Below are positions 1,988 to 25,686 of a stretch of 48,645 nucleotides of DNA, in pieces. Source of the stretch: an uncultured Acidobacteriota bacterium (lineage in GTDB: Bacteria; Acidobacteriota; Thermoanaerobaculia; UBA5066). The position numbers and the translations under genes were made by a program. The notes under the pieces are model-generated. The model did not search any database and was not told where the DNA came from. It saw only the letters and a list, made by a program, of their open reading frames with translations. The number at the start of each line of letters is the position of its first letter. The first letter of the stretch is position 1. Where the stretch lies: the NCBI GenBank assembly GCA_903845115.1, contig CAIMWE010000157.1:1-48645 (forward strand). Direction: 5' to 3'.

Positions 1988-3778
1988 TCAGGGGGCGATC
2001 ATCGCCTCCCAGACCGCCCGGGAGATGGCCCGGGCCGTCTGCAGGACCCCCTTCCGCGCCACGTCCCCCTGGAAGCCGTCCGCCAGGAGCACCAGGAGGT
2101 ATTCCCGCCCGTCGGGAAGCCGGACGATCGCCGCATCGTGCTGGGCGGTGGAGACGCTCCCGGTCTTGTGCGCCACGATCGTGCCCGACTGCGGGTGGAG
2201 CCCGGCCGGGATCTCGTCGTTGACGGTCTGGGCGGCCAGGATGTCCCACGCCATCTTTCGGGAGCTCTCCGAAAGCCTCGGCGACCGGACCGCGGCCTCC
2301 ATCAGCGTGGCCATCCCGGCGGCGTCCGTGTCGTTGAAGATCCCCCTGTCGAGGGCTTTCGTGTCGAAGAGGGCCCGCTTGACGTGGACCGTGCCGGCCC
2401 CCAGCTCGTCCAGCAGCTTCTGAACAGCCTCCGTCCCGACGAGCTGGAGAAAGAGGTTCGCTGCCAAGTTCGACGACCGGACGATCATCTCCCGGGCCAG
2501 GAAGCCGACCGGGGCCTTCTCCCCGACCTTCCCCATGACGAAGGCCTCCGCCTCGGGCTCGATCTCCACCCCGAACGGCGAGCCGTCCACGACGCTCCGG
2601 AACTCGTTCTTCACCTCCAGCTCGTCGGTCCACCTGAGCGTCCCGGCGTCGAGACGGCGGAGCAGCTCCAGGAGGACCGCCGTCTTGACCGTGCTCGCCG
2701 CGTTCATGGCCTGGCTCTCGCCGATCCGGATCGCCGTCCCGGTCCCGAGGTCCCTGAAGACGATCCCGAACCTCACGCCGCTCTTCCCGGCGAGGGCGCG
2801 GAGCTCCGCTTCCAGCGCCGAGCGCTTCGCCTCGCTCCAGGCGCCCGGCCGGGGCGCGCCGGGGATCGCCGCCAGGCGGCGGGCATAGCGGAACCGCCCC
2901 TTCAGCCGGCCGTTCTCCTCGAACGAGGTGATCTGCGTCGACGGGATGCCGTACGAGGTGGCCTGGATCACCCGCCCGTCCCCCAGCCACATGGCCACGT
3001 GGTCGATCTTCCGGTCGGTCCCGAAGAAGAGGAAGTCGCCGGCCTCGAGCTTCTCGAACCGGACCGGGACGAGCCGGGGGTCGCGGAAGCAGAGGTCGGC
3101 GCTGTTCCTCATCACCCGGATTCCGTGGCGCTCCAGGACGCGCGTCAGGAGCCCGGAGCAGTCGAACCCGAAGGGGGTCGTCCCGCCCCACGTGTAGGGC
3201 GCGTCGAGGAACCCCTTCGCCATCTCGATCCACTTCGCCGGATGCGGGAGGGGCGGCCGGATGTCCGGCAGCGGGGCGAGGTCGGGGCCCGCCGCAAAGA
3301 GCCGGCGGCCGTCCGGCAGCCGGACCTCGGCCCAGGAGTGCCCTTCCTGGTCGAACGTCCGGAGCACGTCGAGCCGGGCCGCGAGCGGCGCCGTCAGCAC
3401 CGGCCGCGACGAGGAGAAGTCCGGGTCGCGGTAGAGGTGCGCCACGTTCGACGAGACCTCGTACGGTGTCCCGTAACGCGTCTTCGAGTCGCGGACGACG
3501 GAGCGGGCGTCGACCCAGCCGACCGTCCCGGACGCGCACCGGACCTTCGCGAACCCGGCCGTCTCCTCCAGCGCCTCCACCGTCTCCCCCAGGATCACCT
3601 GGTCGTCGACCTCGGAGGTGGCGTCGGGACGGACGTACACGTTCTCCACGGCCCCGGCGACGACCGCCGTCCTGGAAGCCGGCGGCTCCGCAGCCAGGAC
3701 GGACCGGGGGAGCCCCCCCAGGATCGCAAGGAGGACGAGGAGGAAGACGGAAAGGGAAATCCTCGCACGGCGGGTCAT
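1988..3778 (-). CDS. Secreted NlpC/P60 endopeptidase fused to a class A beta-lactamase-like serine hydrolase
   Basis: 596 residues. Residues 1-30 are a Sec signal peptide. Residues about 38-175 look like bacterial SH3 domains, and about 180-300 are an NlpC/P60 domain with Cys207 in FDCSGLLTRV and His260 in DHVAMWLGDG. Residues about 312-596 form a class A beta-lactamase/transpeptidase-like domain with Ser362-Thr-Val-Lys365, Ser435-Ser-Asn437 and Lys538-Thr-Gly-Ser. I do not see the ExxLN omega-loop motif of true class A beta-lactamases, so antibiotic hydrolysis is doubtful and a murein peptidase or esterase is as likely. NlpC/P60 enzymes of this layout cut D-Glu/DAP bonds and release L-Ala-D-Glu, the substrate of the epimerase at 5668-6807. 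The ATG follows GAGAAT by 5 nt. Confidence 0.85.
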   Translation of the reverse strand: MTRRARISLSVFLLVLLAILGGLPRSVLAAEPPASRTAVVAGAVENVYVRPDATSEVDDQVILGETVEALEETAGFAKVRCASGTVGWVDARSVVRDSKTRYGTPYEVSSNVAHLYRDPDFSSSRPVLTAPLAARLDVLRTFDQEGHSWAEVRLPDGRRLFAAGPDLAPLPDIRPPLPHPAKWIEMAKGFLDAPYTWGGTTPFGFDCSGLLTRVLERHGIRVMRNSADLCFRDPRLVPVRFEKLEAGDFLFFGTDRKIDHVAMWLGDGRVIQATSYGIPSTQITSFEENGRLKGRFRYARRLAAIPGAPRPGAWSEAKRSALEAELRALAGKSGVRFGIVFRDLGTGTAIRIGESQAMNAASTVKTAVLLELLRRLDAGTLRWTDELEVKNEFRSVVDGSPFGVEIEPEAEAFVMGKVGEKAPVGFLAREMIVRSSNLAANLFLQLVGTEAVQKLLDELGAGTVHVKRALFDTKALDRGIFNDTDAAGMATLMEAAVRSPRLSESSRKMAWDILAAQTVNDEIPAGLHPQSGTIVAHKTGSVSTAQHDAAIVRLPDGREYLLVLLADGFQGDVARKGVLQTARAISRAVWEAMIAP

Positions 3779-3790
3779 GGCCGATTCTCG
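3779..3790 (-). promoter_or_regulatory. Promoter-like 12-mer CGAGAATCGGCC
   Basis: The same 12 bases on the same strand occur at 20982-20993, ahead of the secreted DAP decarboxylase homologue. GAGAAT could be a -10 box. Here it ends 5 nt before the start codon. Confidence 0.35.
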
Positions 3791-3852
3791 CTGATCCGCT
3801 CCGGCCCTGTGGCGCTCCGGACACACGTCATCGTATTTGGGGAGCAGGATAC

Positions 3853-3858
3853 TAAGAT
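3853..3858 (+). promoter_or_regulatory. Candidate -10 box (TACTAAGAT) for the VWFA-related gene
   Basis: TAAGAT extended upstream as TACTAAGAT. It would give a 5' leader of about 150 nt before the ATG at 4017. It overlaps a TAGTAT box read on the other strand (3849-3854), so the two divergent genes may share polymerase sites. Confidence 0.35.
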
Positions 3859-4016
3859 GCCCTCGCCCGGGCTCGCTCGCGGCCGCCGCCAGCCCGGGCC
3901 GAGGGCGACCACGAGGGGTCCCGAGGGAGAGAGCCACGGACGAGATCACCTTCAGGCCTCCGGCCACCCCCCGCGGGGAGAGGAGAGCAGTCCCGGGACT
4001 GAGTGCCGGGCGGGCC

Positions 4017-5627
4017 ATGAGACGAACGCTGTGGCTCCCCGCGATCGGGATGCTCCTGTCGGCGGCGGCCGCTCCGGGCCAGAGGCCCTCCGAACTCCAG
4101 AGGATGCGGGCCTCGGCGGAATTGACCCTCTTCAACCTCGACGTCGTCGTGACCGACTCGAACGGAAGCCCCGTCCACGGTCTCTCGGCGGACGATTTCG
4201 AGGTCCTCCACGACCGGAAGAAGGTCACCATCACGAACTTCCGGGAGGAGCGCGGCAGCGCCCCGGCGTCCCAGGCCGATTCGCGGAGCGGCTCGGTCCA
4301 GGGCCCCGAGGCTCCCGCCGCCCGGCCCAGGAAACACCTCGCCCTCTTCTTCGACCGCCTCGACCTGCCGGACCCCGTCGAGCGGAAGGAGTCCTTCGAC
4401 GCGATGAAGGAGCTGGTCCGGAAGGCCCTCGGCCGGGGCGACGACGTGATGGTGGTCACCTGGAACGGAGTGAGCCAGACGGTCGTCCCCTTCACCTCGG
4501 ACCTCCCGGCTCTCGACCGGGCGATCGACGTGGCGGCCCGCATGGCCATCCGCCAGGGGTCCGAGAACACCGAGAACGACCTCATCGCCTTCAACGACGC
4601 CGTGGCCATCAGGGCCGGTCTCGGCCCGGACTCGACGATGATCATGCACATCCTGGAAACGCAGGCCTTCCAGAACATGAAGGCCAAGGCCGGGGTCATC
4701 CGGGGGATCCTCTCGGTCCTGGCCGGGATGGAAGGCCGGAAGGCGCTCGTCCTCGCCACGCGCCGGTTCTCCCGGTACGCCGGCAGGGAGTTCGGCGGGG
4801 ACGGAGTCGACACGAAGAGCCTGCGGGATTCGGTCATCGACGCGGCGAATGCCGCCGGCGTGACGCTCTACACCATCGACGCCCGCCCTTCCGAGACGGA
4901 CCTCCCGTCGGCGGCGTCGTCCCGCGACACGAACCCCTCCTTCAGCGGCTCCTCCGCGAGCACCGGCGCGACCCAGGCGAGCTGGCTCAACGAAAGCGAG
5001 AACCTCGCCATGATGGCCGAGCGCACCGGCGGGGTGACGGGAGGCATCCGGGGAGCCGGGTCCGTCTCGGAGCGCGTCTCGAGGGACTTCGAGTCGTGGT
5101 ACTCGCTCGGGTATCCGGCCCCCCCCGGCTCCGCGCGGTCGGTCCCCGTGTCGGTCAAGGTCAAGGGCCGGAAGGTCGACGTCAGGACGCGCAAGACCTT
5201 CGTCGAGAAGAGTCCCGAGGCACAGATGAGCGAACGGGTCCTCTCCCATCTCTTCATTCCGGACGCCCGCGCCAGGATCCCGATCTCCGTCGACGGGCAG
5301 GCCGTTCCGGTGAAGAAGGGGGGCACCCGTCTCTCGCTGGCGGTGAGGATCCCCATCGCGTCCCTCGTGCTCCTCCCGACGTCCCGGGGCTCCTCCGGCG
5401 GGTTCTCGGTCTTCGCGGCCGCCATCGCTCCCGACGGGAGCCTGACCGAGGTGGGCCGGCAGTGGCGCCCGTTCGAGATTCCCCGGTCGGACCTGGAGAA
5501 GGCGAAGGCGGCCCATTTCACCTACGACCTGGTCATCGACATCTCGGGCCCCGGTGCCCGCGTCTGCGTCGGCGTCTGGGACGAGACCGGCCAGGACGCG
5601 GGCTTCGCCGTCCTGGACCTCTCCTGA
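4017..5627 (+). CDS. Secreted VWFA-related protein of acidobacterial type
   Basis: 536 residues. It begins with a short signal peptide (RTLWLPAIGMLLSAAAAPG), followed by a conserved beta-rich N-terminus (LFNLDVVVTDSNGSPVHGL, then DDFEVLHD). The von Willebrand factor A-like fold follows, with HLALFFDRLDLPD in place of a classic DxSxS metal site. The tail has SRDFESWYSLGYPAP and VSVKVKGRKVDVRTRKTF. This arrangement is typical of the large VWFA-related secreted family of Acidobacteria, whose function is unknown. The ATG at 4017 was chosen because it directly precedes the signal peptide; the upstream in-frame stretch does not look like protein. The next gene starts 40 bp downstream with its own promoter box. 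Confidence 0.8.
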   Translation: MRRTLWLPAIGMLLSAAAAPGQRPSELQRMRASAELTLFNLDVVVTDSNGSPVHGLSADDFEVLHDRKKVTITNFREERGSAPASQADSRSGSVQGPEAPAARPRKHLALFFDRLDLPDPVERKESFDAMKELVRKALGRGDDVMVVTWNGVSQTVVPFTSDLPALDRAIDVAARMAIRQGSENTENDLIAFNDAVAIRAGLGPDSTMIMHILETQAFQNMKAKAGVIRGILSVLAGMEGRKALVLATRRFSRYAGREFGGDGVDTKSLRDSVIDAANAAGVTLYTIDARPSETDLPSAASSRDTNPSFSGSSASTGATQASWLNESENLAMMAERTGGVTGGIRGAGSVSERVSRDFESWYSLGYPAPPGSARSVPVSVKVKGRKVDVRTRKTFVEKSPEAQMSERVLSHLFIPDARARIPISVDGQAVPVKKGGTRLSLAVRIPIASLVLLPTSRGSSGGFSVFAAAIAPDGSLTEVGRQWRPFEIPRSDLEKAKAAHFTYDLVIDISGPGARVCVGVWDETGQDAGFAVLDLS

Positions 5628-5667: not shown

Positions 5668-6807
5668 ATGACGCCCCCCCTCTCCCGCCGCGCCCTTCTC
5701 TCCTCCGGCGGCGCCCTCGCCGCCTCCGCATTCCTCCCGGCGTCGCTCGCGGCGCCGGCCGAAGGTCGGAAGGCGGCCGGGACCGGGAGCGCGAAGCTCG
5801 ACTTCCGCCTCCTGCCGCTGAAGCTGACCCACGCCTGGACGCTCTCGCGCAACACCTCCACCGAGAAGAGGAACGGCCTCCTGACGCTCTCGGCCGAGGG
5901 GGTCACCGGGTACGGAGAGGCCGCCGCGAACGTCCGGTACGGCCAGAGTTTCGAGAGCGCGGAGAAGGCGTTCGCGAGGGTCGCGAAGGCGGTCGAGGGG
6001 CTCTCGCCGTGGGAGCACCTGGCGTGGCTCGAGCGGGCCGAGAAGGAAGCCGGGATCGATTCCGAGGTCGTCGCCGCCCTGGACATGGCGCTCTGGGACT
6101 GGAAGGGGAAGAAGCTGGGCACGCCGGTCCACCGGCTGCTCGGGATCCCGACCGGCCGGATGGCCGTGACCACCTACTCGATCGGAATCGACACGGCCGA
6201 CGCGATGAAGGCGAAGGTGAAGGAGGCGACGGCCTATCCGCACCTGAAGGTCAAGGTCGGCCTCCCCGACGACGAGGCGAACGTGGCGGCGATCCGCTCG
6301 GTCACCGACAAGCCGATCCGCGTCGACGCCAACGAGGGATGGAAGAGCGCCGAGGAGGCGATCCGGAAGATCGCCTGGCTGAAGACGATGGGGATCGAGT
6401 TCGTCGAGCAGCCGCTCCCCTCCTCGATGAACGCCGAGACGAGGAAGGTGAAGGCGGTGGCGGGTCTCCCGCTGGTGGCCGACGAGTCGGTCCTCCACCC
6501 GTCCGACGTGGCCGCCCTCGCCGGGACCTTCGACGGGATCAACGTGAAGCTGGCCAAGTGCGGCGGCCTCACCCGCGCCTACGAGATGGCCGCCCTCGGC
6601 CGCGCCCTTGGCTTCAAGCTGATGCTCGGCTGCATGATCGAGTCGTCGCTCGGGATCGCCGCGGCGGTCGCCGTGGCCCCGCTCTACGACTGGCTCGACC
6701 TGGACGGGAACCTGCTGATCTCGAACGACCCGTTCAAGGGGCTCTCCATCCAGGACGGCGTCTGGGCGCTGCCGAGCGGGCCGGGGCTGGGAGTGGTGCC
6801 GGTCTAG
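5668..6807 (+). CDS. L-Ala-D/L-Glu dipeptide epimerase with Tat export signal
   Basis: 379 residues, enolase superfamily. It converts L-Ala-D-Glu from murein stem peptides into L-Ala-L-Glu. The capping domain is at about 43-165 and the barrel at 165-379. Catalytic KxK is Lys194-Val-Lys196; metal ligands are Asp220 (VDAN), Glu247 (VEQP) and Asp272 (ADES); the second acid/base Lys is in NVKLAKCGG (294-299). The DLDGN segment near 345 is the specificity mark of this subgroup. Unusually, the N-terminus (LSRRALLSSGGALAASAF) is a twin-arginine signal, so the enzyme is predicted to act in the periplasm, whereas known epimerases such as E. coli YcjG are cytoplasmic. It lies in the murein island downstream of the NlpC/P60 fusion. 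Confidence 0.85.
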   Translation: MTPPLSRRALLSSGGALAASAFLPASLAAPAEGRKAAGTGSAKLDFRLLPLKLTHAWTLSRNTSTEKRNGLLTLSAEGVTGYGEAAANVRYGQSFESAEKAFARVAKAVEGLSPWEHLAWLERAEKEAGIDSEVVAALDMALWDWKGKKLGTPVHRLLGIPTGRMAVTTYSIGIDTADAMKAKVKEATAYPHLKVKVGLPDDEANVAAIRSVTDKPIRVDANEGWKSAEEAIRKIAWLKTMGIEFVEQPLPSSMNAETRKVKAVAGLPLVADESVLHPSDVAALAGTFDGINVKLAKCGGLTRAYEMAALGRALGFKLMLGCMIESSLGIAAAVAVAPLYDWLDLDGNLLISNDPFKGLSIQDGVWALPSGPGLGVVPV

Positions 6808-7762: not shown

Positions 7763-8890
7763 ATGGACGTCGACAGCTCTCCGGCCCCGTGCGGCGAGCG
7801 GCTCGCCGCCCTCGACCTCTTTCGCGGCGCGACGGTGGCCGCGATGCTCTTCGTGAACAACCCCGGCGACTGGGGACACCTCCTCCGCCCGTTCGGCCAC
7901 GCCGAGTGGCACGGGTGGACGCCGACCGACCTGATCTTCCCGTTCTTCCTCTTCATCGTCGGGACGTCGGGCGTCCTCTCCCTCGAGAAACGCCGCGCCG
8001 CCGGGGCGAGCGACCGGGAGCTGGCCCGCCACGCCGCGGTCCGCGGCATGATGATCGTCCTGGTCGGCTGGGCCATGGCCTGGTTCCCCTTCACGCCGGA
8101 GAGGCTGACGCGCCTCCGGATCCCCGGCGTCCTGCCGCGAATCGGCGCCGTCTACCTCCTCGGCACCTGCCTCGTCCTCCTCTTCCGGAAGCGGCGGGCC
8201 TGGATGGTCCTCCTCGCGGCCGCGGTCCTCCTCTCCGTCCACACCTTCCTCCTGACCGGCCTCGGCTTCGACCTGACCCGCGAAGGGAACGTCCAGCGCT
8301 TCGTCGACCTCGCCCTGCTGAAGGGGCACCTCTGGAAGAGGGACTGGGACCCCGAGGGGATCGTCTCGACCCTCTCGGCCGTCGCGACGCTCCTGACCGG
8401 GACTCTCGCGGGGTTCTGGCTGAAGTCGGACCGCCCGCTCGGCCGGAGGGTGACGGGGCTCGTCCTCTGCGGCCTCGCCGCGGCGGCGGCGGGAGAGCTC
8501 TGGGGCCTGTCGCTCCCCGTGAACAAGAACCTCTGGACCGGCTCCTACGTCCTCCTGACGTCGGGGTTCGCGGCGGCCTCGCTGGGCCTCTCGATTCTCC
8601 TCGTCGACGGGATGGGGCTCGTCAAGCCTCCCGGCTTCTTCTACACGTTCGGGACGAATCCCCTCCTGGCATTCGTCCTCTCGGGCCTCGGCACCAAGAC
8701 GCTCGGCCTCGTGAAGTGGGCCGGCGCGGGCGGAGCGACGACCTCGCTCCACTCGTTTCTCTACCGGGGATCCTTCGGGCGCCTCCCGAGCCCGGTCCTC
8801 GCCTCGCACCTCTGGGCGGTCGCGGTCGTCGTCCTCTGGTACCTCGTCCTCCGCGCCTTCGAGCGGCGCGGCTGGTACTGGAAGGTCTGA
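7763..8890 (+). CDS. NagX/HGSNAT-like membrane acyltransferase
   Basis: 375 residues with about ten hydrophobic segments. The N-terminus RLAALDLFRGATVAAML and the downstream TPTDLIFPFFLFIVGTS are hallmarks of the family related to heparan-alpha-glucosaminide N-acetyltransferase (DUF5009/NagX). LRIPGVLPRIGAVYLLG and FFYTFGTNPLLAFVLSG are further conserved blocks. In other bacteria nagX is found with GlcNAc genes and is thought to act on amino sugars at the membrane, but its reaction is not firmly established. The gene converges on murQ with a 13-bp gap, which supports a role in handling murein sugars. Confidence 0.8.
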   Translation: MDVDSSPAPCGERLAALDLFRGATVAAMLFVNNPGDWGHLLRPFGHAEWHGWTPTDLIFPFFLFIVGTSGVLSLEKRRAAGASDRELARHAAVRGMMIVLVGWAMAWFPFTPERLTRLRIPGVLPRIGAVYLLGTCLVLLFRKRRAWMVLLAAAVLLSVHTFLLTGLGFDLTREGNVQRFVDLALLKGHLWKRDWDPEGIVSTLSAVATLLTGTLAGFWLKSDRPLGRRVTGLVLCGLAAAAAGELWGLSLPVNKNLWTGSYVLLTSGFAAASLGLSILLVDGMGLVKPPGFFYTFGTNPLLAFVLSGLGTKTLGLVKWAGAGGATTSLHSFLYRGSFGRLPSPVLASHLWAVAVVVLWYLVLRAFERRGWYWKV

Positions 8891-8903: not shown

Positions 8904-9761
8904 TCAGGAGCCCGGGGGCCCGGGCCTCTCCTCGAGCGCCCTGGCGACCGAGCCCGCCCACGACGCGAGGTGCGCCCGGGCGGCTTCCGGCGCCAGGTCC
9001 CACCGGCCCGCGATCAGCGCCACCGGAAGGTCCCAGCCCGACTCCTCGAGCAGCCACTCGGCCCGCTCGGACGTCTCGCCCAGGATCTTCGCGGCGATCC
9101 GGACCGCGCGGGCGCGGAGCTTCGCGTTCGTCGGCCGCACCGCGACCATGAGGCCGTCGACGACGAGCCCCCGCTCCGCCATGACGGCGGTCGACAGCAT
9201 GTTCAGCGCCAGCTTCTGGGCCGTTCCCGCCTTCATCCGGGTCGACCCTTCGAGGACCTCCGCTCCCGTGTCGAGGAGGACCGGGATCTCGGCCAGCTCC
9301 AGGAGCGGCGTCCGGGGCGTGCAGACGAGCGCGACCGTCAGCGCGCCCGCCTCCCGCGCGTGCCGGAGCGCCCCGGCGACGTAGGGGGTCCGTCCGCTCG
9401 CGGCGAGGCCCACCACCGCGTCGCGCGCCGTCATCCCGGCCGCGGCCAGGTCCCGTCCGCCGGCGGCCTCGTCGTCCTCTGCCCCTTCGACCGCGCGGAA
9501 CATCGCCTCGGGGCCCCCGGCCAGGAGCGCCGTGACGAGCCCCGGGTCGGTCCCGAAGGTGGGCGGCAGCTCGGCGGCGTCGAGGACCGCCAGCCGCCCG
9601 CTCGTCCCGGCCCCCACGTTGAACCACCGGCCGCCCGCCGCGAGCCGCCCGGCCAGCGCCTCCGCCGCCCGTTCGAGCGCCGGGAGGGCGGCCCCCACCG
9701 CGTCGAACGCGGTCCGGTCCGCCTCGTGGATCCTCCTGAGGAGGGCCGGGATCCCGCTCAC
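8904..9761 (-). CDS. murQ: N-acetylmuramic acid 6-phosphate etherase
   Basis: 285 residues, close to the usual size of about 300. MurQ removes the lactyl ether from MurNAc-6-phosphate to give GlcNAc-6-phosphate and D-lactate. The SIS sugar-phosphate fold is clear: NVGAGTSGRLAVLDAAELPPTFG carries the family's active-site Glu, and the tail signature EGSTRMKAGTAQKLALNM is diagnostic. The GTG start overlaps the stop of the kinase gene (9758-10711) as GTGA, so the two should be translated together at fixed ratio. The protein has no signal and is cytoplasmic. Confidence 0.93.
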   Translation of the reverse strand: MSGIPALLRRIHEADRTAFDAVGAALPALERAAEALAGRLAAGGRWFNVGAGTSGRLAVLDAAELPPTFGTDPGLVTALLAGGPEAMFRAVEGAEDDEAAGGRDLAAAGMTARDAVVGLAASGRTPYVAGALRHAREAGALTVALVCTPRTPLLELAEIPVLLDTGAEVLEGSTRMKAGTAQKLALNMLSTAVMAERGLVVDGLMVAVRPTNAKLRARAVRIAAKILGETSERAEWLLEESGWDLPVALIAGRWDLAPEAARAHLASWAGSVARALEERPGPPGS

Positions 9762-10711
9762 GCCGATCCGGCTGCCTCGGCAGCCTCGGCGGCGACGGCG
9801 ATCCTCACGGCGCCGATCTCCGGCGGGAACGCCGCCTGGCCCGCCGTCGCCCTCGGCGCCACGGACGCGAGCGCCTCGCGGACCGGGTCGAGGATCAGCG
9901 CCCCCGCGCCGAACACCCCCCCGACCGTCGCTACGCGGAACGCGTCGCCCAGCATCCCGAGCTTCCTCGCCACCGTCACCGCCGCAAGCCCCAGCTCCGC
10001 CCCCGCGCGCCGGAAGATCTCGAGCGAGAGGACGTCCCCCTGCCGCGCGGCGTCGAGGACCATCGGGTAGAACGCGGCGACCTCCGAGGGGCCCCCGTCC
10101 ACGCGGTGGACCTTCAGGAGGAGCTCGGCCGGGGTACCGATTCCCTCGGACGAGAGGACCGTCGTCCGGAGGAGCGTGTCGGGGCCGCGCCCGTCCAGGT
10201 CCCTCATGACCGCCATCAGCCCCTCGCGGGCGATCGCATATCCCGATCCCTCGTCGCCGAGCAGCGGGCCCCACCCGCCGGCGCGGGCCTCTTCCCCCTT
10301 CGCGTTCCGCCCGAACGCGATCGCCCCCGTCCCGGCGATCAGGACGATCCCGGGCGTCCCCACCGGCCCCTCCGACGCGCCTGCCAGGGCGATCCGGGCA
10401 TCCGTCGTCACCTGGATCCTCCCGAAGCCGAAGATCTTCTCGAGGCCCCACTGGAGCCGCTCCCGGAGGCCGGTCGCGTCCACCCCGGCGATGCCGCAGC
10501 AGATCCGCCGGACGTCCCCCTGCCCGACGCCCGCGGCCGAGAGCGCGTCGTCGAGCGCCTCGTGGATCACCTCCATCACGTGCGCCAGCGACCCCCGGGA
10601 GGCGTTGGACGCTCCGGCGGTCCCGCGCCCCCGGATCACGAGGTCCTCCGCCGCCACGACCGCTCGCGTCCTCGTCCCGCCGCCGTCGATGCCGACGTAC
10701 AGTGCTGACAT
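9758..10711 (-). CDS. BadF/BcrA-type sugar kinase, probable MurNAc/GlcNAc kinase
   Basis: 317 residues. The N-terminal phosphate-1 motif YVGIDGGGTRTRAVV, the IAGTGAIAFGRN block and GWGPLLGDEGSGYAIAREGL identify the BadF/BadG/BcrA/BcrD ATPase family, which includes the GlcNAc kinase NagK and the MurNAc/GlcNAc kinase MurK. Coupling to murQ points to MurNAc phosphorylation, giving MurNAc-6-phosphate as the MurQ substrate. GlcNAc may be a second substrate. The ATG lies 6 nt after TACACT, so the mRNA is probably leaderless. A divergent leaderless promoter serves the glycosyltransferase at 10760. Confidence 0.85.
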   Translation of the reverse strand: MSALYVGIDGGGTRTRAVVAAEDLVIRGRGTAGASNASRGSLAHVMEVIHEALDDALSAAGVGQGDVRRICCGIAGVDATGLRERLQWGLEKIFGFGRIQVTTDARIALAGASEGPVGTPGIVLIAGTGAIAFGRNAKGEEARAGGWGPLLGDEGSGYAIAREGLMAVMRDLDGRGPDTLLRTTVLSSEGIGTPAELLLKVHRVDGGPSEVAAFYPMVLDAARQGDVLSLEIFRRAGAELGLAAVTVARKLGMLGDAFRVATVGGVFGAGALILDPVREALASVAPRATAGQAAFPPEIGAVRIAVAAEAAEAAGSA

Positions 10712-15499: not shown

Positions 15500-16540
15500 G
15501 TGTCCGATCCCGGCCTCCCTCCCGGCGCGCTCTTCCGGGCCGAGGTCCGGGAGCAGCCCGACGCGGTCGCGCGGCTGCTCGGGCGCGAGGCGAAGAGGAC
15601 CAAGGCCTTCGCCCGGAGCCTGTTGCGCCACGACCTCCGCTTCGTCCTGGTCGCCGCCCGCGGCTCGTCCGACAACGCCGCCCGCTACGCCCAGTACGCG
15701 TTCGGGATCGCCGCCTCGCTCCCGGTCGCCCTCGCGGCGCCGTCGCTGTCGACGCTCTACGGCCGGCCGCCGCGCCTCCGCAACGCCCTCGTCGTCGGGA
15801 TCTCGCAGTCCGGGCGCTCGCCCGACGTCGTCGAGGTCCTCGCGGCCGCCCGGCGCGCCGGCGCCCCGACCCTCGCGATCGTCAACGACCCCGACAGCCC
15901 GCTGGCCCGGGCGGCCTCCGAGGTCCTGCCGCTCCACGCCGGTCTCGAGCAAAGCGTGGCGGCCACGAAGACCTACACCGCGGAGCTGGCCGCCGTCGCC
16001 CTCCTGGCCCTCTCCATCGGCCGCCGGCGCGAGGAGCTGCGGCAGCTCGCGGCCGTCCCGGAGAGGATGGCGCGGGCTCTCTCCCTCGAGGAGGCCGCGG
16101 AGCGCGCCTCCTCGACGCTCGCCCCGTTCACCCGGGCCGCCGTCATCGCCCGGGGGATCAACTACCCCACCGCCTGGGAGATCGCGCTGAAGCTGAAGGA
16201 GACGGCGCTCCTGCACGCCGAGCCCTTCTCCTCCGCGGATTTCCTCCACGGCCCGATCGCGGTGGCCGGCGCCGGCTTCCCCGCGCTGATCGTGTCGCCC
16301 CCCGGCGGCGCCGCGGCGAGAGAGCTCGCGGGCCTCGCCCGCGCGCTCGCGAGGAGAGGGTGTCCGGTCCTGACGATCGGCCCGGCGAACGGGACGCTCC
16401 CGCTCCCCCGGGTTCCCGAGCTCTTCTCGCCGATGGTGGCGGTGGTGCCGGGCCAGTTCCTGGCGCTGGGACTCGCGCTCGGGCGCGGGCTGGACCCCGA
16501 CCGGCCGAGGGGGCTCCACAAAGTCACGGAAACTCGCTAG
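15500..16540 (+). CDS. SIS-domain amino-sugar isomerase/deaminase (GlmS-C/NagB-II-like)
   Basis: 346 residues with two SIS domains, like the isomerase half of GlmS but without the glutaminase half. Motifs are AARGSSDNAARYAQYAF, VVGISQSGRSPDVVEVL and SVAATKTYTAELAAVAL in the first domain, and EIALKLKETALLHAEPFS and DFLHGPIA in the second. Stand-alone proteins of this type near nag genes act as glucosamine-6-phosphate deaminases (NagB-II), which would channel MurQ-derived sugar to fructose-6-phosphate. A GlcNAc-6-phosphate deacetylase (NagA) is not in the window. The last codons and the stop lie inside a perfect 24-bp hairpin. Confidence 0.8.
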   Translation: MSDPGLPPGALFRAEVREQPDAVARLLGREAKRTKAFARSLLRHDLRFVLVAARGSSDNAARYAQYAFGIAASLPVALAAPSLSTLYGRPPRLRNALVVGISQSGRSPDVVEVLAAARRAGAPTLAIVNDPDSPLARAASEVLPLHAGLEQSVAATKTYTAELAAVALLALSIGRRREELRQLAAVPERMARALSLEEAAERASSTLAPFTRAAVIARGINYPTAWEIALKLKETALLHAEPFSSADFLHGPIAVAGAGFPALIVSPPGGAAARELAGLARALARRGCPVLTIGPANGTLPLPRVPELFSPMVAVVPGQFLALGLALGRGLDPDRPRGLHKVTETR

Positions 16541-17085: not shown

Positions 17086-19500
17086 TCAGTCGTACAGGAG
17101 GAACGCGGCGCGGCGGCGCTCGAACTCCATCTGGGCGGCGGCCCAGCCGGAGACGATGGACGCGGCCGTATCTCCCCGTTCGATCCGGGTCAGCGTCGCG
17201 CCGTGGGCCAGCAGGTGTCCCAGCCGGCTCCGGTCCCACTCCTTCGGGAAGAGGTCGCGGAGCGCCGTCGCCAGCTCCATCCCCAGGGCGACCGGCGCCA
17301 GGCGGTCCCGGTCCACCACGGTGATCCGGACGCCACCGCATTCGACCCCGGAGTGCGTCGACGATGCCGGCGTGAGGCGGAGCGGCGTGAACCGGACCCC
17401 AGGGATTCCCCGGGCCGAGAGGACCGACGCGAGTCTCGCCCCGTCCAGCCAGGGGGCACCGACCCACTCGAAGGGCGCGTCGGTCCCGCGTCCCACCGAA
17501 ACGTTCGTCGTCTCGAGGAGAGCCACGCCGGGATAGAGCGCCGCCTGCGTCACGCTCCGGAGGTTCGGCGAGGGGTTCACCCAGGCGAGGCCGGTCTCGT
17601 CGTACCAGAGCGACCGCCGGCACCCCTTCATCTTCACCACGTACAGCATCGCCCCGATCGACTGCTCCGCGTTGAACATCCCGGCCAGCTCGCCGATCGT
17701 CATCCCGGTCCGGACCGGGATCGAGTGATACGCGGTAAACGAGAGACGGTCGTCGTCTGCGGGCGGCCCCTCGACGACGTCGGCCCGGATCGGGTCGGGC
17801 CGGTCCAGGACCACCACCTTCACGTTCGCCTTCGCCGCTTCCTCCATCACGTACCCGAGGGTCGTGAGGTACGTGTAGAAGCGGGCGCCGGCGTCCTGCA
17901 GGTCGACCACGATCGCGTCGAGCCCCGCGAGATCCGAGGGAGACGGGCGGCGGCTCTCGCCGTAGAGGGAGGTCACCCTCAATCCGGTGGCCGGGTCCGC
18001 CTGGCCGACGACCTTCTCGTCGCGCGTCCCGTCCGGCCCGTGCTCGGGCGAGAAGAGGCGGACGAGCGAGACGCCGGCCTTTCTCGCCGGTTCCGAGAGG
18101 AGGACTGCCGCCGTGGGGCGGCCGTCGGCCGCGCGTCCCGCCGGGTGCGTCAGGAGGGCGACCTTCCAGCCGGCGATCGCCTTGAAGCCGTCGGCCTCGA
18201 GGACGTCGATCCCCGCACGGACCGGCGATGCGGCCGCGGGTGGCGGCGGCGCGGGCGAGGCCGGCATCAAAACCTTCCTTCCCACCGCGGCGAGAAGACT
18301 CGTCGCCCACGACGCCTCCCGGAGCTTCTCCACGTCCATGTCTTCGACCGCGGCGGCGGCGAGCGTCGCGACGATCCCCCGGAGAGCGATCGGGGAGGTG
18401 CCCGAGCCGTCCGGGTGGACCCGGCTCGTCAGGAGGACGACGAAGACGCGCGTCGCCGGGTCGATCCAGATCGACGTCCCCGTCCACCCGGTGTGGCCGA
18501 ACGAGCCGCGCGGGAGGAGGTCCCCCCTGTTCGACGAGTAGGAGGTCTCGACGTCCCACCCGAGCGCCCGGAGGTCCCCGTCCCCGAAGAAGCGGGGGCG
18601 TGTCATCTCCGCGACGCCGGCGGCCGAGAGGAACGGCCCTCCCCCCGAGAGGATCGCGGTGCAGAAGCGGGCCAGGTCGTCGGCCGTCCCGAAGAGGCCG
18701 GCGTGCCCCGCCACGCCGCCGACGGCCCGGGCGCGCGGGTCGTGGACCTCGCCGCGGAGGATCCGCCCGTCGACCTTCTCGGTCGGAGCGATCCGCGCCG
18801 TGGGCAGGTTCCCCTTGCCCGCCGGACGGAACTCGGTCTCCTTCATGCCGAGCTTCGCGAAGGCGTTCTCGCGGACGAAGAGGTCGAGCTGGCGGCCCGA
18901 CACGCGGGCCACCAGCTCGCCGAGCGCCTCGTAGCCGGCGTCGGAGTAAAGGAACCGCTGGCCGGGGGGATGGGCGAGGGGGACCTTCGCCTTCCGCGCC
19001 AGAATCTCCTCCCGTGTGCCGCGGTAGAGGTCCATCGGGTCGTCGGCCACCAGCCCGCCCCGGTGAACGAGGAGCTGCTCCACCGTCACTTTCTCGCGGC
19101 CCCCTTCCCGGCCGAACTCCGGGAGATGCTTCACGACCGGGTCGGAGAGCCGGACCTTCCCTTCCTCCACCAGGACCATCACGCTCGCCGCCGTGGCGAC
19201 GGCCTTCGTGACGGACGCCAGGTCGAACACCGTGTCGACCGTCATCGCTTCCCGGTCGGGGACGAGGGACCGGAAGCCGTACGCCTTCCGGTAGACGACC
19301 TTGTTCCCGCGGCCGATCAGGACAACCGCCCCGGGGAGCTCCTTTCGCGCGATCGCCCCCTCGACCGGCGCGTCGATCCGCGCGAGCCGCGCGGCCGACA
19401 TGCCGGCCGAAGCGGGCGGGACGACGGGCAGCGCGCCGGCGGCCCGCGCCGGGGAAGCCGCGAGGAGAGCCGCGAGGAGAGCCGGAGCGAGGCTTCCCAC
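17086..19500 (-). CDS. Secreted AmiE-like serine hydrolase fused to NamZ-type exo-N-acetylmuramidase (DUF1343)
   Basis: 804 residues. Residues 1-21 are a Sec signal peptide. Residues about 25-395 are a beta-lactamase-fold esterase/amidase domain with Ser96-Val-Thr-Lys99, Tyr185-Ser-Asp and His336-Thr-Gly. An Ala/Pro linker (about 411-427) leads to a DUF1343 domain at 428-804, with FSPEHG near 483, VVDLQDAGARFYTYLTTL near 532, VVLDRPDP, GMTIGELAGMFN and NVSVGRGTDAPFEWVGAPW. DUF1343 includes Bacillus subtilis NamZ, which removes MurNAc from non-reducing glycan ends. In B. subtilis the beta-lactamase-fold MurNAc-Ala amidase AmiE and NamZ are separate genes of one operon; here they are one exported protein. 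It starts 11 nt after the DAP decarboxylase homologue and probably shares its transcript. Confidence 0.87.
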   Translation of the reverse strand: MGSLAPALLAALLAASPARAAGALPVVPPASAGMSAARLARIDAPVEGAIARKELPGAVVLIGRGNKVVYRKAYGFRSLVPDREAMTVDTVFDLASVTKAVATAASVMVLVEEGKVRLSDPVVKHLPEFGREGGREKVTVEQLLVHRGGLVADDPMDLYRGTREEILARKAKVPLAHPPGQRFLYSDAGYEALGELVARVSGRQLDLFVRENAFAKLGMKETEFRPAGKGNLPTARIAPTEKVDGRILRGEVHDPRARAVGGVAGHAGLFGTADDLARFCTAILSGGGPFLSAAGVAEMTRPRFFGDGDLRALGWDVETSYSSNRGDLLPRGSFGHTGWTGTSIWIDPATRVFVVLLTSRVHPDGSGTSPIALRGIVATLAAAAVEDMDVEKLREASWATSLLAAVGRKVLMPASPAPPPPAAASPVRAGIDVLEADGFKAIAGWKVALLTHPAGRAADGRPTAAVLLSEPARKAGVSLVRLFSPEHGPDGTRDEKVVGQADPATGLRVTSLYGESRRPSPSDLAGLDAIVVDLQDAGARFYTYLTTLGYVMEEAAKANVKVVVLDRPDPIRADVVEGPPADDDRLSFTAYHSIPVRTGMTIGELAGMFNAEQSIGAMLYVVKMKGCRRSLWYDETGLAWVNPSPNLRSVTQAALYPGVALLETTNVSVGRGTDAPFEWVGAPWLDGARLASVLSARGIPGVRFTPLRLTPASSTHSGVECGGVRITVVDRDRLAPVALGMELATALRDLFPKEWDRSRLGHLLAHGATLTRIERGDTAASIVSGWAAAQMEFERRRAAFLLYD

Positions 19501-19511
19501 GGGACGCCCCC

Positions 19512-20957
19512 CTACTTCTTCGGGGCGGCCGGGGCGGCCTCGGCGCGGAAGAGGTCGTCGAACGTCCCGCGGCGGCGGATGACGCGGGCGTCGTTCCCGT
19601 CCACGAGGACCTCGGCCGGAAGCGGCCGCGCGTTGTACTCGCTCGCCATCGAGAAGCCGTAGGCCCCCGCGTCGAGGATCACGACGAGGTCGCCCGCCTT
19701 GGGCCGGGGAAGCATCCGGTCGGCCGCGAGGATGTCTCCGGTCTCGCAGACGTCCCCGGCGACGTCGAGCTTCTGGACCTCCCCCGCGGGGCCGACGACC
19801 CGCACGCGGTGGTAGGCCTGGTACATGGCGGGGCGCATCAGCGTCTCGAAGCCGGCGTCCACGTTGACGAAGGTCTTCACGGGGGTCGTCTTCACCGAGT
19901 TGACCCGGGCCAGGAGGAAGCCCGACGGCGCCACGAAGAAGCGGCCCGGCTCGAGCCAGAGGACCGGCTCGTACCCGAGGGCCTTCACCCCGTCGTCCCA
20001 GATCGGCTTCAGCGCCCTTGCGAGGTCCTCGGAGCCCATCACCGTCTCGCCGTCGTGGTACGGGATCCCGATGCCGCCGCCGAGGTCCACGAACTCGAGC
20101 GTGACGCCGAGCTTCTCCTTCAGCTCCCGGACGAACGCGAGCATCTTCCTCGCCGTCGCCTCGTATCCCGACGTCTCCGTGATCTGGGAGCCGATGTGGC
20201 AGTGGACGCCCGTGATCCTGACGTGCGGGAGCGCCTTCGCCCTGGCGTACGCCGCGAGGGCGATCCCGTCCTCGAGGTGGAGGCCGAACTTCGACTCGGA
20301 GATGCCGGTGTTGATCTGGTGGATCGTGTGCGGATCGACTCCCGGGTTGATGCGGAACGAGATGCGCGCCGCCTTCCCGAGGCGCCCCGCGATCTCGCTC
20401 ACCTGCTCCAGCTCGTCGCGCGAGTCGACGTTCAGGACGCTCCCGTTCCGGATCGCCAGCTCGATCTCGTCGGGCCGCTTGGAGGAGGAGGTGAACATGA
20501 TCTCGTCCCCCGGCACCCCGACCCGCCTGGCGGCGACCAGCTCACCGCCCGAGACCACCTCGGCCCCGAGCCCCTCGTCCCTCAGGAGCGAGACGATCAC
20601 GCCGTTCGTGTTCGCCTTCACCGCGTAGAAGACCTTCAGCTTCGGGAAGCGGGGCGCGAACGCCCCCTTCAGCGCCCGCGCCTGGCCCACGATCGTCGCC
20701 CGGTCGTAGACGTAGAGCGGCGTCCCGAATCTCGCGGCCAGCGTCTCGAAGGCCCGCGTCGCCTCCGGGCTCCCGGCCCGGTCGGCCCGGGCCGCCTGGA
20801 GACCGTCGCGGAGCGTGGAGGCAGGGGCGGCGGCTCCGGGCGGCAGAGGGGCGGCGGCCTGGGCAGGGGCCTTCGACGGGACCTCGGCGCCGGCGAGGAT
20901 CGGCGAGAAGCAGAGAGCCAGCGCGACGGCGAGACGGGAAGGCGTGCGATTCGGCAA
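19512..20957 (-). CDS. Exported diaminopimelate/lysine decarboxylase homologue (LysA fold)
   Basis: 481 residues. It belongs to the fold III PLP decarboxylases: Lys114 in VFYAVKANTN binds PLP, with His252-Cys-His in HCHIGSQ, GGGIGIPY (about 293-300), EPGR (336-339), CETGD (404-408) and DAGAY. This set matches diaminopimelate decarboxylase, though D-ornithine/D-lysine decarboxylases are similar. About 65 extra N-terminal residues start with a Sec-like signal (SRLAVALALCFSPILAGA) and an Ala/Pro linker, so the enzyme is predicted to be periplasmic, which is unusual for this family. The start is TTG, picked because AGGAGG lies 5 nt upstream and the signal peptide follows at once. DAP freed from murein peptides is the likely substrate. 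Confidence 0.82.
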   Translation of the reverse strand: MPNRTPSRLAVALALCFSPILAGAEVPSKAPAQAAAPLPPGAAAPASTLRDGLQAARADRAGSPEATRAFETLAARFGTPLYVYDRATIVGQARALKGAFAPRFPKLKVFYAVKANTNGVIVSLLRDEGLGAEVVSGGELVAARRVGVPGDEIMFTSSSKRPDEIELAIRNGSVLNVDSRDELEQVSEIAGRLGKAARISFRINPGVDPHTIHQINTGISESKFGLHLEDGIALAAYARAKALPHVRITGVHCHIGSQITETSGYEATARKMLAFVRELKEKLGVTLEFVDLGGGIGIPYHDGETVMGSEDLARALKPIWDDGVKALGYEPVLWLEPGRFFVAPSGFLLARVNSVKTTPVKTFVNVDAGFETLMRPAMYQAYHRVRVVGPAGEVQKLDVAGDVCETGDILAADRMLPRPKAGDLVVILDAGAYGFSMASEYNARPLPAEVLVDGNDARVIRRRGTFDDLFRAEAAPAAPKK

Positions 20958-21013: not shown

Positions 21014-21019
21014 TAGAAT
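21014..21019 (+). promoter_or_regulatory. Leaderless-type -10 box TAGAAT for the LD-carboxypeptidase
   Basis: TAGAAT ends 7 nt before ATG 21027. Confidence 0.5.
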
Positions 21020-21026
21020 GGGCTCC

Positions 21027-22106
21027 ATGCTGAATCGCAGAGGGTTCCTCGGGCAGGTCTCCACCGCGTCCCTGTTCGCCGCCTTCCCCCCGGGGCTCCA
21101 GGAGACGATCGCGCGCGCCGAGAAGGGGACGCTGCCGCCGATCCGGCCGAAGGCGCTGAAGAGGGGAATGACGATCGCCCTCGTCTCTCCTTCCAGCCCG
21201 CTGGCCGACTCCGAGAGCCTGAAGATCGCGGCGGAGATGACGGCCCTCCTCGGCTTCGTCCCGAAGCTGATGCCGAACGCCGGCCGGGTCGCGATGTACC
21301 TGGCGGGGACGGACCAGGAGCGGGCGGCCGACCTCAACACCGCCTTCGCCGATCCGTCCGTCGACGCCGTCTGGTGCCTCCGCGGCGGCTACGGCTCGTA
21401 CCGGATCCTCCCCTTCCTCGACTACGAGACGATCCGGAAGAACCCCAAGCCCCTCATCGGCTACAGCGACGTCACCGCTCTTCTCAACGCCGTCCACCGG
21501 ATGACCGGCCTCGTCACCTTCCACGGACCGATGGGATCCGAGAACCTCACCGAGTTCACCCTTTCCGAGTTCAAGAAGGTCCTCTACGAGGCGAGGGCGG
21601 CCGGATCGATCGCCGCCCCTCCTCCGCCGCCGCCCCTCGAGCGGGAAGGCTTCGTCGACCGCGAGAACCGCCTCCGCCGGATCGCTCCTGGCAAAGCCAG
21701 GGGGCCGCTCGTCGGCGGGAACATCAGCGTCTTTGCGACCCTCGTCGGGACACCGTTCGAGCCGGACCTCCGGGGGAGAATCCTCCTTCTCGAGGAGGTG
21801 GGAGAGGAGCCGAAGAAGATCGACCGGTGGCTGAGCGGCTTCCTGCTGACAGGACGGCTCCAGTCGCTCGCCGGGATCGTCCTCGGGCGGTTCAACGACT
21901 GCGGTCCGAAGGACCAGGCGGCCTACTACGGGACCTGGACGTGGCAGGAGGTCTGCGCGGACAGGCTGGGAGGCCTCGGCATCCCCGTCCTCGCCGGCCT
22001 CCGCTTCGGGCACGTCCCGGATAAGGCGACGCTCCCGATCGGCGTCGCCGCCGAGCTGGACGCCGACGCCGGGACCCTGACCCTCCTGGAGCCCGCCGTC
22101 GCCTGA
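21027..22106 (+). CDS. LD-carboxypeptidase (S66 family, LdcA-like) with Tat export signal
   Basis: 359 residues. S66 peptidases remove the terminal D-Ala from murein tetrapeptides. The nucleophile is Ser124 in LRGGYGSYRILPF, the acid Glu256 in ILLLEEVGEEPKKIDR, and His329 in LRFGHVPDK. The N-terminus (LNRRGFLGQVSTASLFAAF) is a twin-arginine signal, so export is predicted, unlike the cytoplasmic E. coli LdcA. A second in-frame ATG at 21018 overlaps the -10 box, so 21027 is preferred. It is divergent from the DAP decarboxylase homologue. Confidence 0.87.
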   Translation: MLNRRGFLGQVSTASLFAAFPPGLQETIARAEKGTLPPIRPKALKRGMTIALVSPSSPLADSESLKIAAEMTALLGFVPKLMPNAGRVAMYLAGTDQERAADLNTAFADPSVDAVWCLRGGYGSYRILPFLDYETIRKNPKPLIGYSDVTALLNAVHRMTGLVTFHGPMGSENLTEFTLSEFKKVLYEARAAGSIAAPPPPPPLEREGFVDRENRLRRIAPGKARGPLVGGNISVFATLVGTPFEPDLRGRILLLEEVGEEPKKIDRWLSGFLLTGRLQSLAGIVLGRFNDCGPKDQAAYYGTWTWQEVCADRLGGLGIPVLAGLRFGHVPDKATLPIGVAAELDADAGTLTLLEPAVA

Positions 22107-24460: not shown

Positions 24461-24492
24461 TTCGCCGCCGGCCTCGATGCCTGTCGGGTCAT
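24457..24492 (-). other. 11-codon relay ORF linking racemase and GNAT genes
   Basis: Its ATG overlaps the racemase stop (ATGA at 24489-24492) and its TGA overlaps the GNAT start (GTGA at 24457-24460). The peptide would be MTRQASRPAAK. It can carry a terminating ribosome across the 28-nt gap between the two genes. Confidence 0.45.
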
Positions 24493-25595
24493 GCGCGGTA
24501 CTCCCTCTTCCCCGTCGTGAAGCGCGAGAGGATAGCAGCCCGCACCTCGACTCCGGTGCCGGGGCCGGCCGGGACCGGCATGAGGCCTGCCGTCGCCTCC
24601 AGGCGGGGCTCGACGATGTCCTCCTCGAAGTAGCGCGACGAGGAGGACGTGTCGCCCGGCTTGCTGAACCCCGCGAGCGACGCGATCGCCACGTTGTGCG
24701 CGCGGCCGACCCCCGATTCCAGCATCCCCCCGCACCAGAGAGGGATCCCCGCGGCCGCGGCCGCCTCGTGGATCGCCAGCGCCTCGCCGTGGCCGCCCAC
24801 GCGCCCGATCTTCACGTTGATCACCTTGCAGGCTCCCAGGGCGATCGCCGCCTTCGCGTCGGCCGCGGAGCGGATCGACTCGTCGAGGCAGATCGGCGTC
24901 CCGATCCGCCGGGCCAGCTCCGCGTGCGCGGCGATGTCCTCGTGGTGGAGCGGCTGCTCCATGTAGTCGAGGCCGAACTCGTCGATCGCGGCGAGCGTCG
25001 GCGTGTCGCCGAGCGTGTAGGCCGCGTTGGCGTCGACCGTCAGGACGATCGAGGGAAACGCCCCGCGCACCGCCCGCAGCCTCTCCACGTCGCACCCCGG
25101 CTCGATCTTCAGCTTGATCCGGCGGTATCCCTGCGCCACGTGCCGGCCGACGTTCTCGACGAGGGCCTCGACCGTGGGCGCGATGCCCAGGGAGACGCCC
25201 ACCTCGATGGAGCTCCGCGTCCCCCCGAGGGCCTTCGAGAGCGAGACACCCCGGGCCCTGGCGAAGAGGTCCCAGAGCGCCGTCTCGACGGCCCCCTTCG
25301 CCATCCGGTTCCCCCGGACGCGCGCCGCCAGCAGGTCGAACGCCCCCGGGCCGGCGGTCTCCCGGCCGAGGACGAGGGGGAGGAGGTTCCTCTCCAGGAT
25401 CGCCCGGGCCGTGTCGAGGGTCTCCGGGGAGAAGAAGGGGTCCTCCTCGGCGACGCACTCGCCCCACCCCGCCAGGCCGCCGGACCGGAGCTCCAGGAGA
25501 AGGAACTTCTTGACGTTCGTCTCGCCGAACGACGTCCTGAACTTGAACTTCAGGGGCATCTCCACCGTGCGGAGGACGGCCAGATCGATCTTCAC
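24489..25595 (-). CDS. Enolase-superfamily N-succinylamino-acid racemase / o-succinylbenzoate synthase
   Basis: 368 residues. It is of the NSAR/OSBS type: N-terminal PLKFKFRTSFGETNVKKF, EEDPFFSPETLDTA, the KxK catalytic pair in RRIKLKIEPG, ligands in VDANAAY, YMEQPL and LDESI, and the second Lys in VINVKIGRVGG. The specificity blocks GGMLESGVGRAHN and DTSSSSRYFEEDIV match this branch, not the dipeptide epimerase at 5668. It could make o-succinylbenzoate for menaquinone or racemise N-succinyl amino acids. The adjoining GNAT favours racemisation, and no other men gene is near. GTG 25595 was chosen because GGAGG lies 9 nt before it; the in-frame GTG 25604 has no spacer. Confidence 0.82.
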   Translation of the reverse strand: MKIDLAVLRTVEMPLKFKFRTSFGETNVKKFLLLELRSGGLAGWGECVAEEDPFFSPETLDTARAILERNLLPLVLGRETAGPGAFDLLAARVRGNRMAKGAVETALWDLFARARGVSLSKALGGTRSSIEVGVSLGIAPTVEALVENVGRHVAQGYRRIKLKIEPGCDVERLRAVRGAFPSIVLTVDANAAYTLGDTPTLAAIDEFGLDYMEQPLHHEDIAAHAELARRIGTPICLDESIRSAADAKAAIALGACKVINVKIGRVGGHGEALAIHEAAAAAGIPLWCGGMLESGVGRAHNVAIASLAGFSKPGDTSSSSRYFEEDIVEPRLEATAGLMPVPAGPGTGVEVRAAILSRFTTGKREYRA

Positions 25596-25686
25596 GCGAA
25601 TCACCCTCCGGGCCGATCATCGCACCCGCCCCCGCGGTCCGGAGAGCGGGAGCCCCACGGCTCGGGGACCGAACGGCCCGAAGGAC

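Follow-up and report, generated by a model that had tools for sequence, protein, structure and literature searches.

Bacillus subtilis encodes the amidase AmiE (YbbE) and the exo-muramidase YbbC, which we take to be NamZ, by two separate genes. As the original prediction had stated, both are operon genes; the operon reads murQ-murR-murP-amiE-nagZ-ybbC (PMC5061867), and nagZ lies between amiE and ybbC. In Escherichia coli, yfeW comes third in the operon murQ-murP-yfeW and encodes PBP4B, reported as a DD-carboxypeptidase according to the title of a reference cited in the same paper (PMC5061867). Tannerella forsythia has an operon MurT-MurK-MurQ, in which the MurNAc transporter MurT is a member of the sodium symporter superfamily (PMC5790795).

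Here we describe an acidobacterial locus, contained in a stretch of 48,645 nucleotides (the window), that shares features with all three systems. By domain, it has the same pair of functions as AmiE and NamZ of B. subtilis, and likewise a MurQ pathway neighbour, but the two are encoded by a single fused gene. B. subtilis imports through the PTS protein MurP; here a candidate kinase in the window and an SSF symporter in relatives would take its place. With T. forsythia it shares the kinase–etherase pair and its order, and the counterpart of the SSF-type transporter adjoins the enzymes, or is fused to them, in relatives of the window fusion; an AmiE–NamZ fusion is not reported for T. forsythia in the literature searched. 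With E. coli PBP4B the fusion shares S12 homology, the SxxK, YSD and GHTGWTGT motifs and a MurNAc operon, although PBP4B has no NamZ domain.

A predicted secreted protein with two probable murein-directed domains

The fusion gene has the following features, all on the minus strand:

17086..19500, minus: AmiE-like S12 hydrolase and NamZ fusion protein, 804 aa (open frame, GTG start)
19441..19500, minus: predicted Sec signal peptide, residues 1-20, MGSLAPALLAALLAASPARA (from sequence and start codons)
18394..19362, minus: S12 serine-hydrolase domain, residues 47-369, with S96xxK99, Y185SD187 and H336TG338 (Pfam PF00144)
18223..18279, minus: Ala/Pro linker core, residues 408-426, predicted disordered (pLDDT)
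17551..18162, minus: NamZ N-terminal domain (NamZ_N), residues 447-650, with the SPEHG motif and invariant E486 (PF07075)
17092..17538, minus: NamZ C-terminal domain (NamZ_C), residues 655-803 (PF20732)

The original prediction of an AmiE-like domain and NamZ in one frame is borne out by the open 804-aa frame, by intact alignments in relatives and by Pfam, which recognises Beta-lactamase (PF00144; 9.9e-70), NamZ_N (1.6e-68; 230.5 bits against a gathering score of 26.9) and NamZ_C (4.4e-41; 141.6 against 25). Secretion, also predicted, is consistent with the start codons: GTG 19500 is the only one ahead of ATG 19401 and yields a Sec-type signal peptide. The proposed linker is equally evident, both in composition (an Ala/Pro-rich stretch at residues about 408-426, within ...MPASPAPPPPAAASPVRAG) and in the AlphaFold model, where, the signal peptide apart, pLDDT falls below 50 nowhere but at residues 408-423. 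Computed with a 50-sequence alignment, this model contains two confident domains (mean pLDDT 90) and has a pTM of 0.55, that is, two folded units whose mutual placement is left loose.

The fusion is found free of stops in dozens of genomes, and a missing stop codon or an assembly artefact was therefore rejected as its origin. Nor is it a chance join, since 47 of 297 genomes of the phylum, counting that of the window, give an uninterrupted alignment over the two halves (a lower bound, counted from the rows listed) and the motifs are kept in 50 proteins. These 50 fusions come from Acidobacteriota and from several further phyla. In their alignment S96, K99, Y185-S-D187, H336 and G338 of the S12 half are invariant in every sequence, as are E486-H-G488, D533, R540, Y542-T-Y544, D566-R567, S644-P-N646 and R671 of the NamZ half. 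These data bear on whether one half might be catalytically dead and provide its partner with a binding module. The pTM of 0.55 and the lack of a defined interface would fit such an arrangement, but invariance of the expected catalytic motifs of both halves across 50 diverse fusions is unlike a decayed domain, and we find the idea hardly credible.

Taken with the gene context described below, we consider it probable that the fusion is a secreted bifunctional murein-salvage enzyme, which takes the peptide off MurNAc and MurNAc off wall glycans. In the S12 half, acting outside the cytoplasm, Ser96 would be the nucleophile, aided by Lys99, Tyr185 and the HTG loop, and the peptide would be cut from MurNAc in the fashion of AmiE. 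The NamZ half would then take unsubstituted MurNAc off the non-reducing end of the glycans. The flexible linker may keep the two active sites close to each other; MurNAc ends freed of peptide would then be produced and consumed in one place, which is the benefit of fusion that we infer.

The NamZ half resembles solved DUF1343 structures

The NamZ half retains the motifs SPEHG, RFYTY, LDRP, PSPN and VGRGT. In fold comparisons it matched two DUF1343/NamZ proteins of Bacteroides fragilis: BF0371 (PDB 4k05; Z 49.3, rmsd 2.1, 34% identity, 373 residues aligned) and BF0379 (4jja; Z 40.1, 31% identity over 337). The fold of this half is common to both, but, unlike the window fusion, the solved chains have no S12 domain. 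Domains, fold and motifs together predict a complete GH171 exo-beta-N-acetylmuramidase, in which conservation makes E486 the candidate catalytic residue.

The S12 half is related to PBP4B/YfeW

The S12 fold spans esterases, D-peptidases and beta-lactamases. The S12 half of the fusion is nearer in sequence to E. coli PBP4B/YfeW than to true beta-lactamases. Its best NCBIfam model was the PBP4B/YfeW equivalog (NF002968; 164.9 bits, short of the cut-off of 385), while the class C beta-lactamase model (NF033085) scored 43.5 bits, short of its cut-off of 415. Aligned pairwise, the S12 half and YfeW are 32% identical over 431 aa, with a score of 176 bits, and have their YSD and GHTGWTGT motifs exactly in common. 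The nearest solved structures are EstG, family VIII esterases and other S12-fold esterases or acyltransferases (Z about 40), and D-peptidases and carboxypeptidases are also found among the fold matches.

An AmiE-type amidase would be expected to combine the S12 fold and its SxxK, Tyr and [KH]TG motifs with a gene context of MurNAc catabolism. The S12 half has the fold and the motifs; murK-murQ in the window, and MurQ, SSF or NagZ genes in relatives, provide the context. The label 'AmiE-like' is thus a reasonable, if provisional, one, resting on gene context and the relation to YfeW. When plasmids were searched for the S12 half, the best 40 records did not include a Bacillus amiE. Of the identities originally proposed, the domain families of both halves stand on Pfam, motifs and fold; amidase specificity is less firmly placed, the best relative in reach being PBP4B/YfeW at 32% identity.

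Two other activities were weighed for this half. It could be a DD-carboxypeptidase or D-amino-acid peptidase trimming stem peptides, as reported for PBP4B, with NamZ acting as proposed. Its kinship with PBP4B, the best characterised sequence relative in reach, and the peptidases among its fold matches are in keeping with this. However, NamZ works at the glycan end and in B. subtilis is paired in one operon with the amidase AmiE (PMC5061867), and an L,D-carboxypeptidase gene is already close by in the window; we therefore regard a DD-carboxypeptidase as unlikely. An enzyme like EstG or a family VIII esterase, or a glucan hydrolase, acting on another substituent of a wall or periplasmic glycan, seems very unlikely. 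EstG and 4ivi are indeed among the best structural matches (Z 39-40, 30-32% identity), but the 176 bits for YfeW (pairwise) exceed the 109.5 bits of the top PDB sequence match (database search), scores that are only roughly comparable, and both the exact motif matches to YfeW and the MurNAc catabolic context argue against an esterase. Cleavage between MurNAc and peptide accordingly remains the activity that we favour for the S12 half.

The fusion lies in a murein-salvage island

The window is a murein-salvage island around the fusion, with the following neighbours:

1988..4837, minus: SH3, NlpC/P60 and class A beta-lactamase-like domains in one frame, N-terminal boundary uncertain (domain profiles)
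5668..6807, plus: dipeptide epimerase or DgcA-like racemase, Tat-like signal (PF13378; NF042940 230 bits and NF011708 149 bits, both below cut-off)
7763..8890, plus: NagX-like transmembrane acetyltransferase (NF046061 132 bits, below cut-off)
8904..9761, minus: MurQ, MurNAc-6-phosphate etherase, start GTG 9761 (NF003915 338 bits, cut-off 168)
9758..10711, minus: BadF/NagK-type sugar kinase, candidate MurNAc kinase (MurK-like), start ATG 10711 (PF01869 135 bits; NF046058 116 bits, below cut-off)
15500..16540, plus: SIS-domain glucosamine-6-phosphate deaminase, NagB-II type (NF046059 243 bits, below cut-off 430)
19512..20957, minus: LysA (diaminopimelate decarboxylase) paralog (TIGR01048 461 bits)
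21018..22106, plus: L,D-carboxypeptidase (peptidase S66, LdcA-like), Tat-like N-terminus NRRGFL (PF02016, PF17676; NF008424 below cut-off)

The start codon of murQ overlaps the stop of the MurK-like kinase gene. A second enolase-family protein (24489-25604) was rejected as an epimerase, as it scores as MenC. Within the window no SSF gene was found, and the best SSF of the genome lies on a short contig without gene context; AnmK was not found in the genome.

These genes suggest a route for what the fusion would release. Freed MurNAc would be imported, in relatives via the adjacent or fused SSF symporter, and the importer of this genome may be of the same kind. It would be phosphorylated by the MurK-like kinase, after which MurQ would convert MurNAc-6-phosphate to GlcNAc-6-P and lactate, and GlcNAc-6-P would pass onward through NagB-II. 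The peptide may be recycled by LdcA, the epimerase and LysA. A joint role in murein salvage is strongly supported by this gene context (murK, murQ, nagB-II, ldcA) and by the alternative fusions found in relatives. We judge the original interpretation to be sound in large part.

The LysA paralog is directly upstream of the fusion gene (gap 11 bp), and a second, ordinary LysA is encoded elsewhere in the genome. The paralog in the window has no start codon but TTG 20957, which gives it an N-terminus resembling a signal peptide; such an N-terminus was also seen in two relatives (L214, L220) and not in L215-L218 or L222. An exported diaminopimelate decarboxylase would be unusual. The Tat-like N-termini of the epimerase-like protein (5668-6807) and the L,D-carboxypeptidase (21018-22106) suggest extracytoplasmic peptide processing.

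The flanks of the fusion, taken up to 8 kb in 80 named relatives, include MurQ in 15 of them, an SSF symporter in about 20 and a GH3 NagZ in 11. By chance, a nearby MurQ would be expected in fewer than one of the 80, an estimate (not a simulation) that assumes one MurQ per roughly 4-5 Mb. The gene order SSF-NagZ-[S12-NamZ] repeats in L050, L054 and L046.

The S12–NamZ architecture is widespread and on record

The original prediction called for a search of the architecture and its taxonomic spread, and held that an already well described architecture would refute it. This applies in part: the architecture is already on record, widespread and not new. Identity to the window fusion is 45-65% in the other same-phylum genomes that align across both halves. 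A scan of GTDB contigs yielded 581 or more related stretches; of the 80 best, nearly all are full-length fusions, and their labels are Acidobacteria, Planctomycetota, Verrucomicrobia, Ferrovum, Pseudomonas panipatensis, Magnetominusculus, Rokuibacteriota, Armatimonadetes and others, the labels being the records' own (one 'Bacillota' MAG, L078, fell in the window's phylum). A PF00144-DUF1343 architecture was listed in a 2008 survey as YP_439122.1 (PMC2605481), and NCBI names WP_059583925.1 of Burkholderia savannae, a species of another phylum, 'exo-beta-N-acetylmuramidase NamZ domain-containing protein'. Both have the domain order of the window fusion, YP_439122.1 by its survey listing. A functional description of the fusion was not found in the literature searched, some NamZ papers lying outside that search. 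The window gene is thus a clear, well-supported example, from soil acidobacteria, of a murein-salvage fusion that is recorded but functionally undescribed.

Parsimony on the domain trees gave four changes between fused and unfused states for NamZ and two for S12, for sequences sampled by similarity to the fusion.

Relatives fuse the same modules in other combinations

At least 12 loci, mostly from one family (f19) of the window's phylum, carry SSF-S12-NamZ_N-NamZ_C in single stop-free frames of about 1300-1700 aa. Pfam confirmed six of these triple fusions (L034, L035, L037, L176, L178, L180), for example:

L034, 2220-6413, plus: SSF-S12-NamZ frame (Pfam)
L035, 4487-8887, minus: SSF-S12-NamZ frame (Pfam)

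Others were identified by BLAST (L036, L038, L039, L112, L179, L181), the frames of L112 and L181 meeting the edge of the available DNA, so that their lengths are minima. NagA is often directly upstream. A NagZ-AmiE-NamZ composition had been considered for the frames of roughly 1400 aa and was rejected, the extra domain being an SSF symporter, not GH3. In the triple fusions the symporter passes into a hydrophobic segment like the signal peptide of the separate enzyme. At L183 (genome G139), the symporter ends at a stop, and an S12-NamZ gene follows in the same frame behind a separate signal peptide, an arrangement that looks like a precursor of the fusion. By analogy with MurT, the SSF part looks like an importer of the released MurNAc.

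A further pairing joins GH3 NagZ, with its C-terminal domain, to S12 in three genomes:

L190, 1398-4424, plus: GH3 NagZ (with GH3 C-terminal domain)-S12 fusion
L193, 5136-8324, plus: GH3 NagZ (with GH3 C-terminal domain)-S12 fusion
L198, 885-4259, minus: GH3 NagZ (with GH3 C-terminal domain)-S12 fusion

At each, a NamZ gene lies divergently alongside, with SSF downstream. The SSF-S12-NamZ and NagZ-S12 pairings are apparently new, as S12-NamZ is not; no description of the symporter–S12–NamZ fusion was found in the literature searched, which lacks most subscription journals. The symporter fusion is accordingly a more original lead than the window gene itself.

That these modules are fused in differing ways independently supports one shared pathway, in which murein is cut outside, MurNAc is imported and phosphorylated, and lactate is removed. 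The differing pairs of symporter, NagZ, AmiE-like domain and NamZ also connect S12 hydrolases and SSF symporters that lack an assigned role with the uptake of MurNAc, and give both protein classes directly testable functions. More tentatively, the window fusion may be one stage of a wider tendency among Acidobacteriota to unite the steps of extracytoplasmic murein salvage in single machines, with a symporter–amidase–muramidase polypeptide that frees MurNAc and takes it up by its own transporter domain as the end point, and with the window's clade also exporting the dismantling of the peptide (L,D-carboxypeptidase, dipeptide epimerase, even the LysA paralog). We see this as possible but doubtful; if true, much of the muropeptide would be taken apart before uptake.

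NamZ also occurs in other settings. The second NamZ of the window's genome (L003, 4651-6357, minus) is followed in the same frame by a MobB (molybdopterin guanine dinucleotide) domain at the C-terminus, and a radical-SAM MoaA-like gene is close by. Murein synthesis is not expected in the haloarchaeon Halorussus halophilus, one of whose plasmids (L185, 5194-13185) carries AnmK, an S12 hydrolase, DUF1343/NamZ and NagZ as separate, clustered genes.
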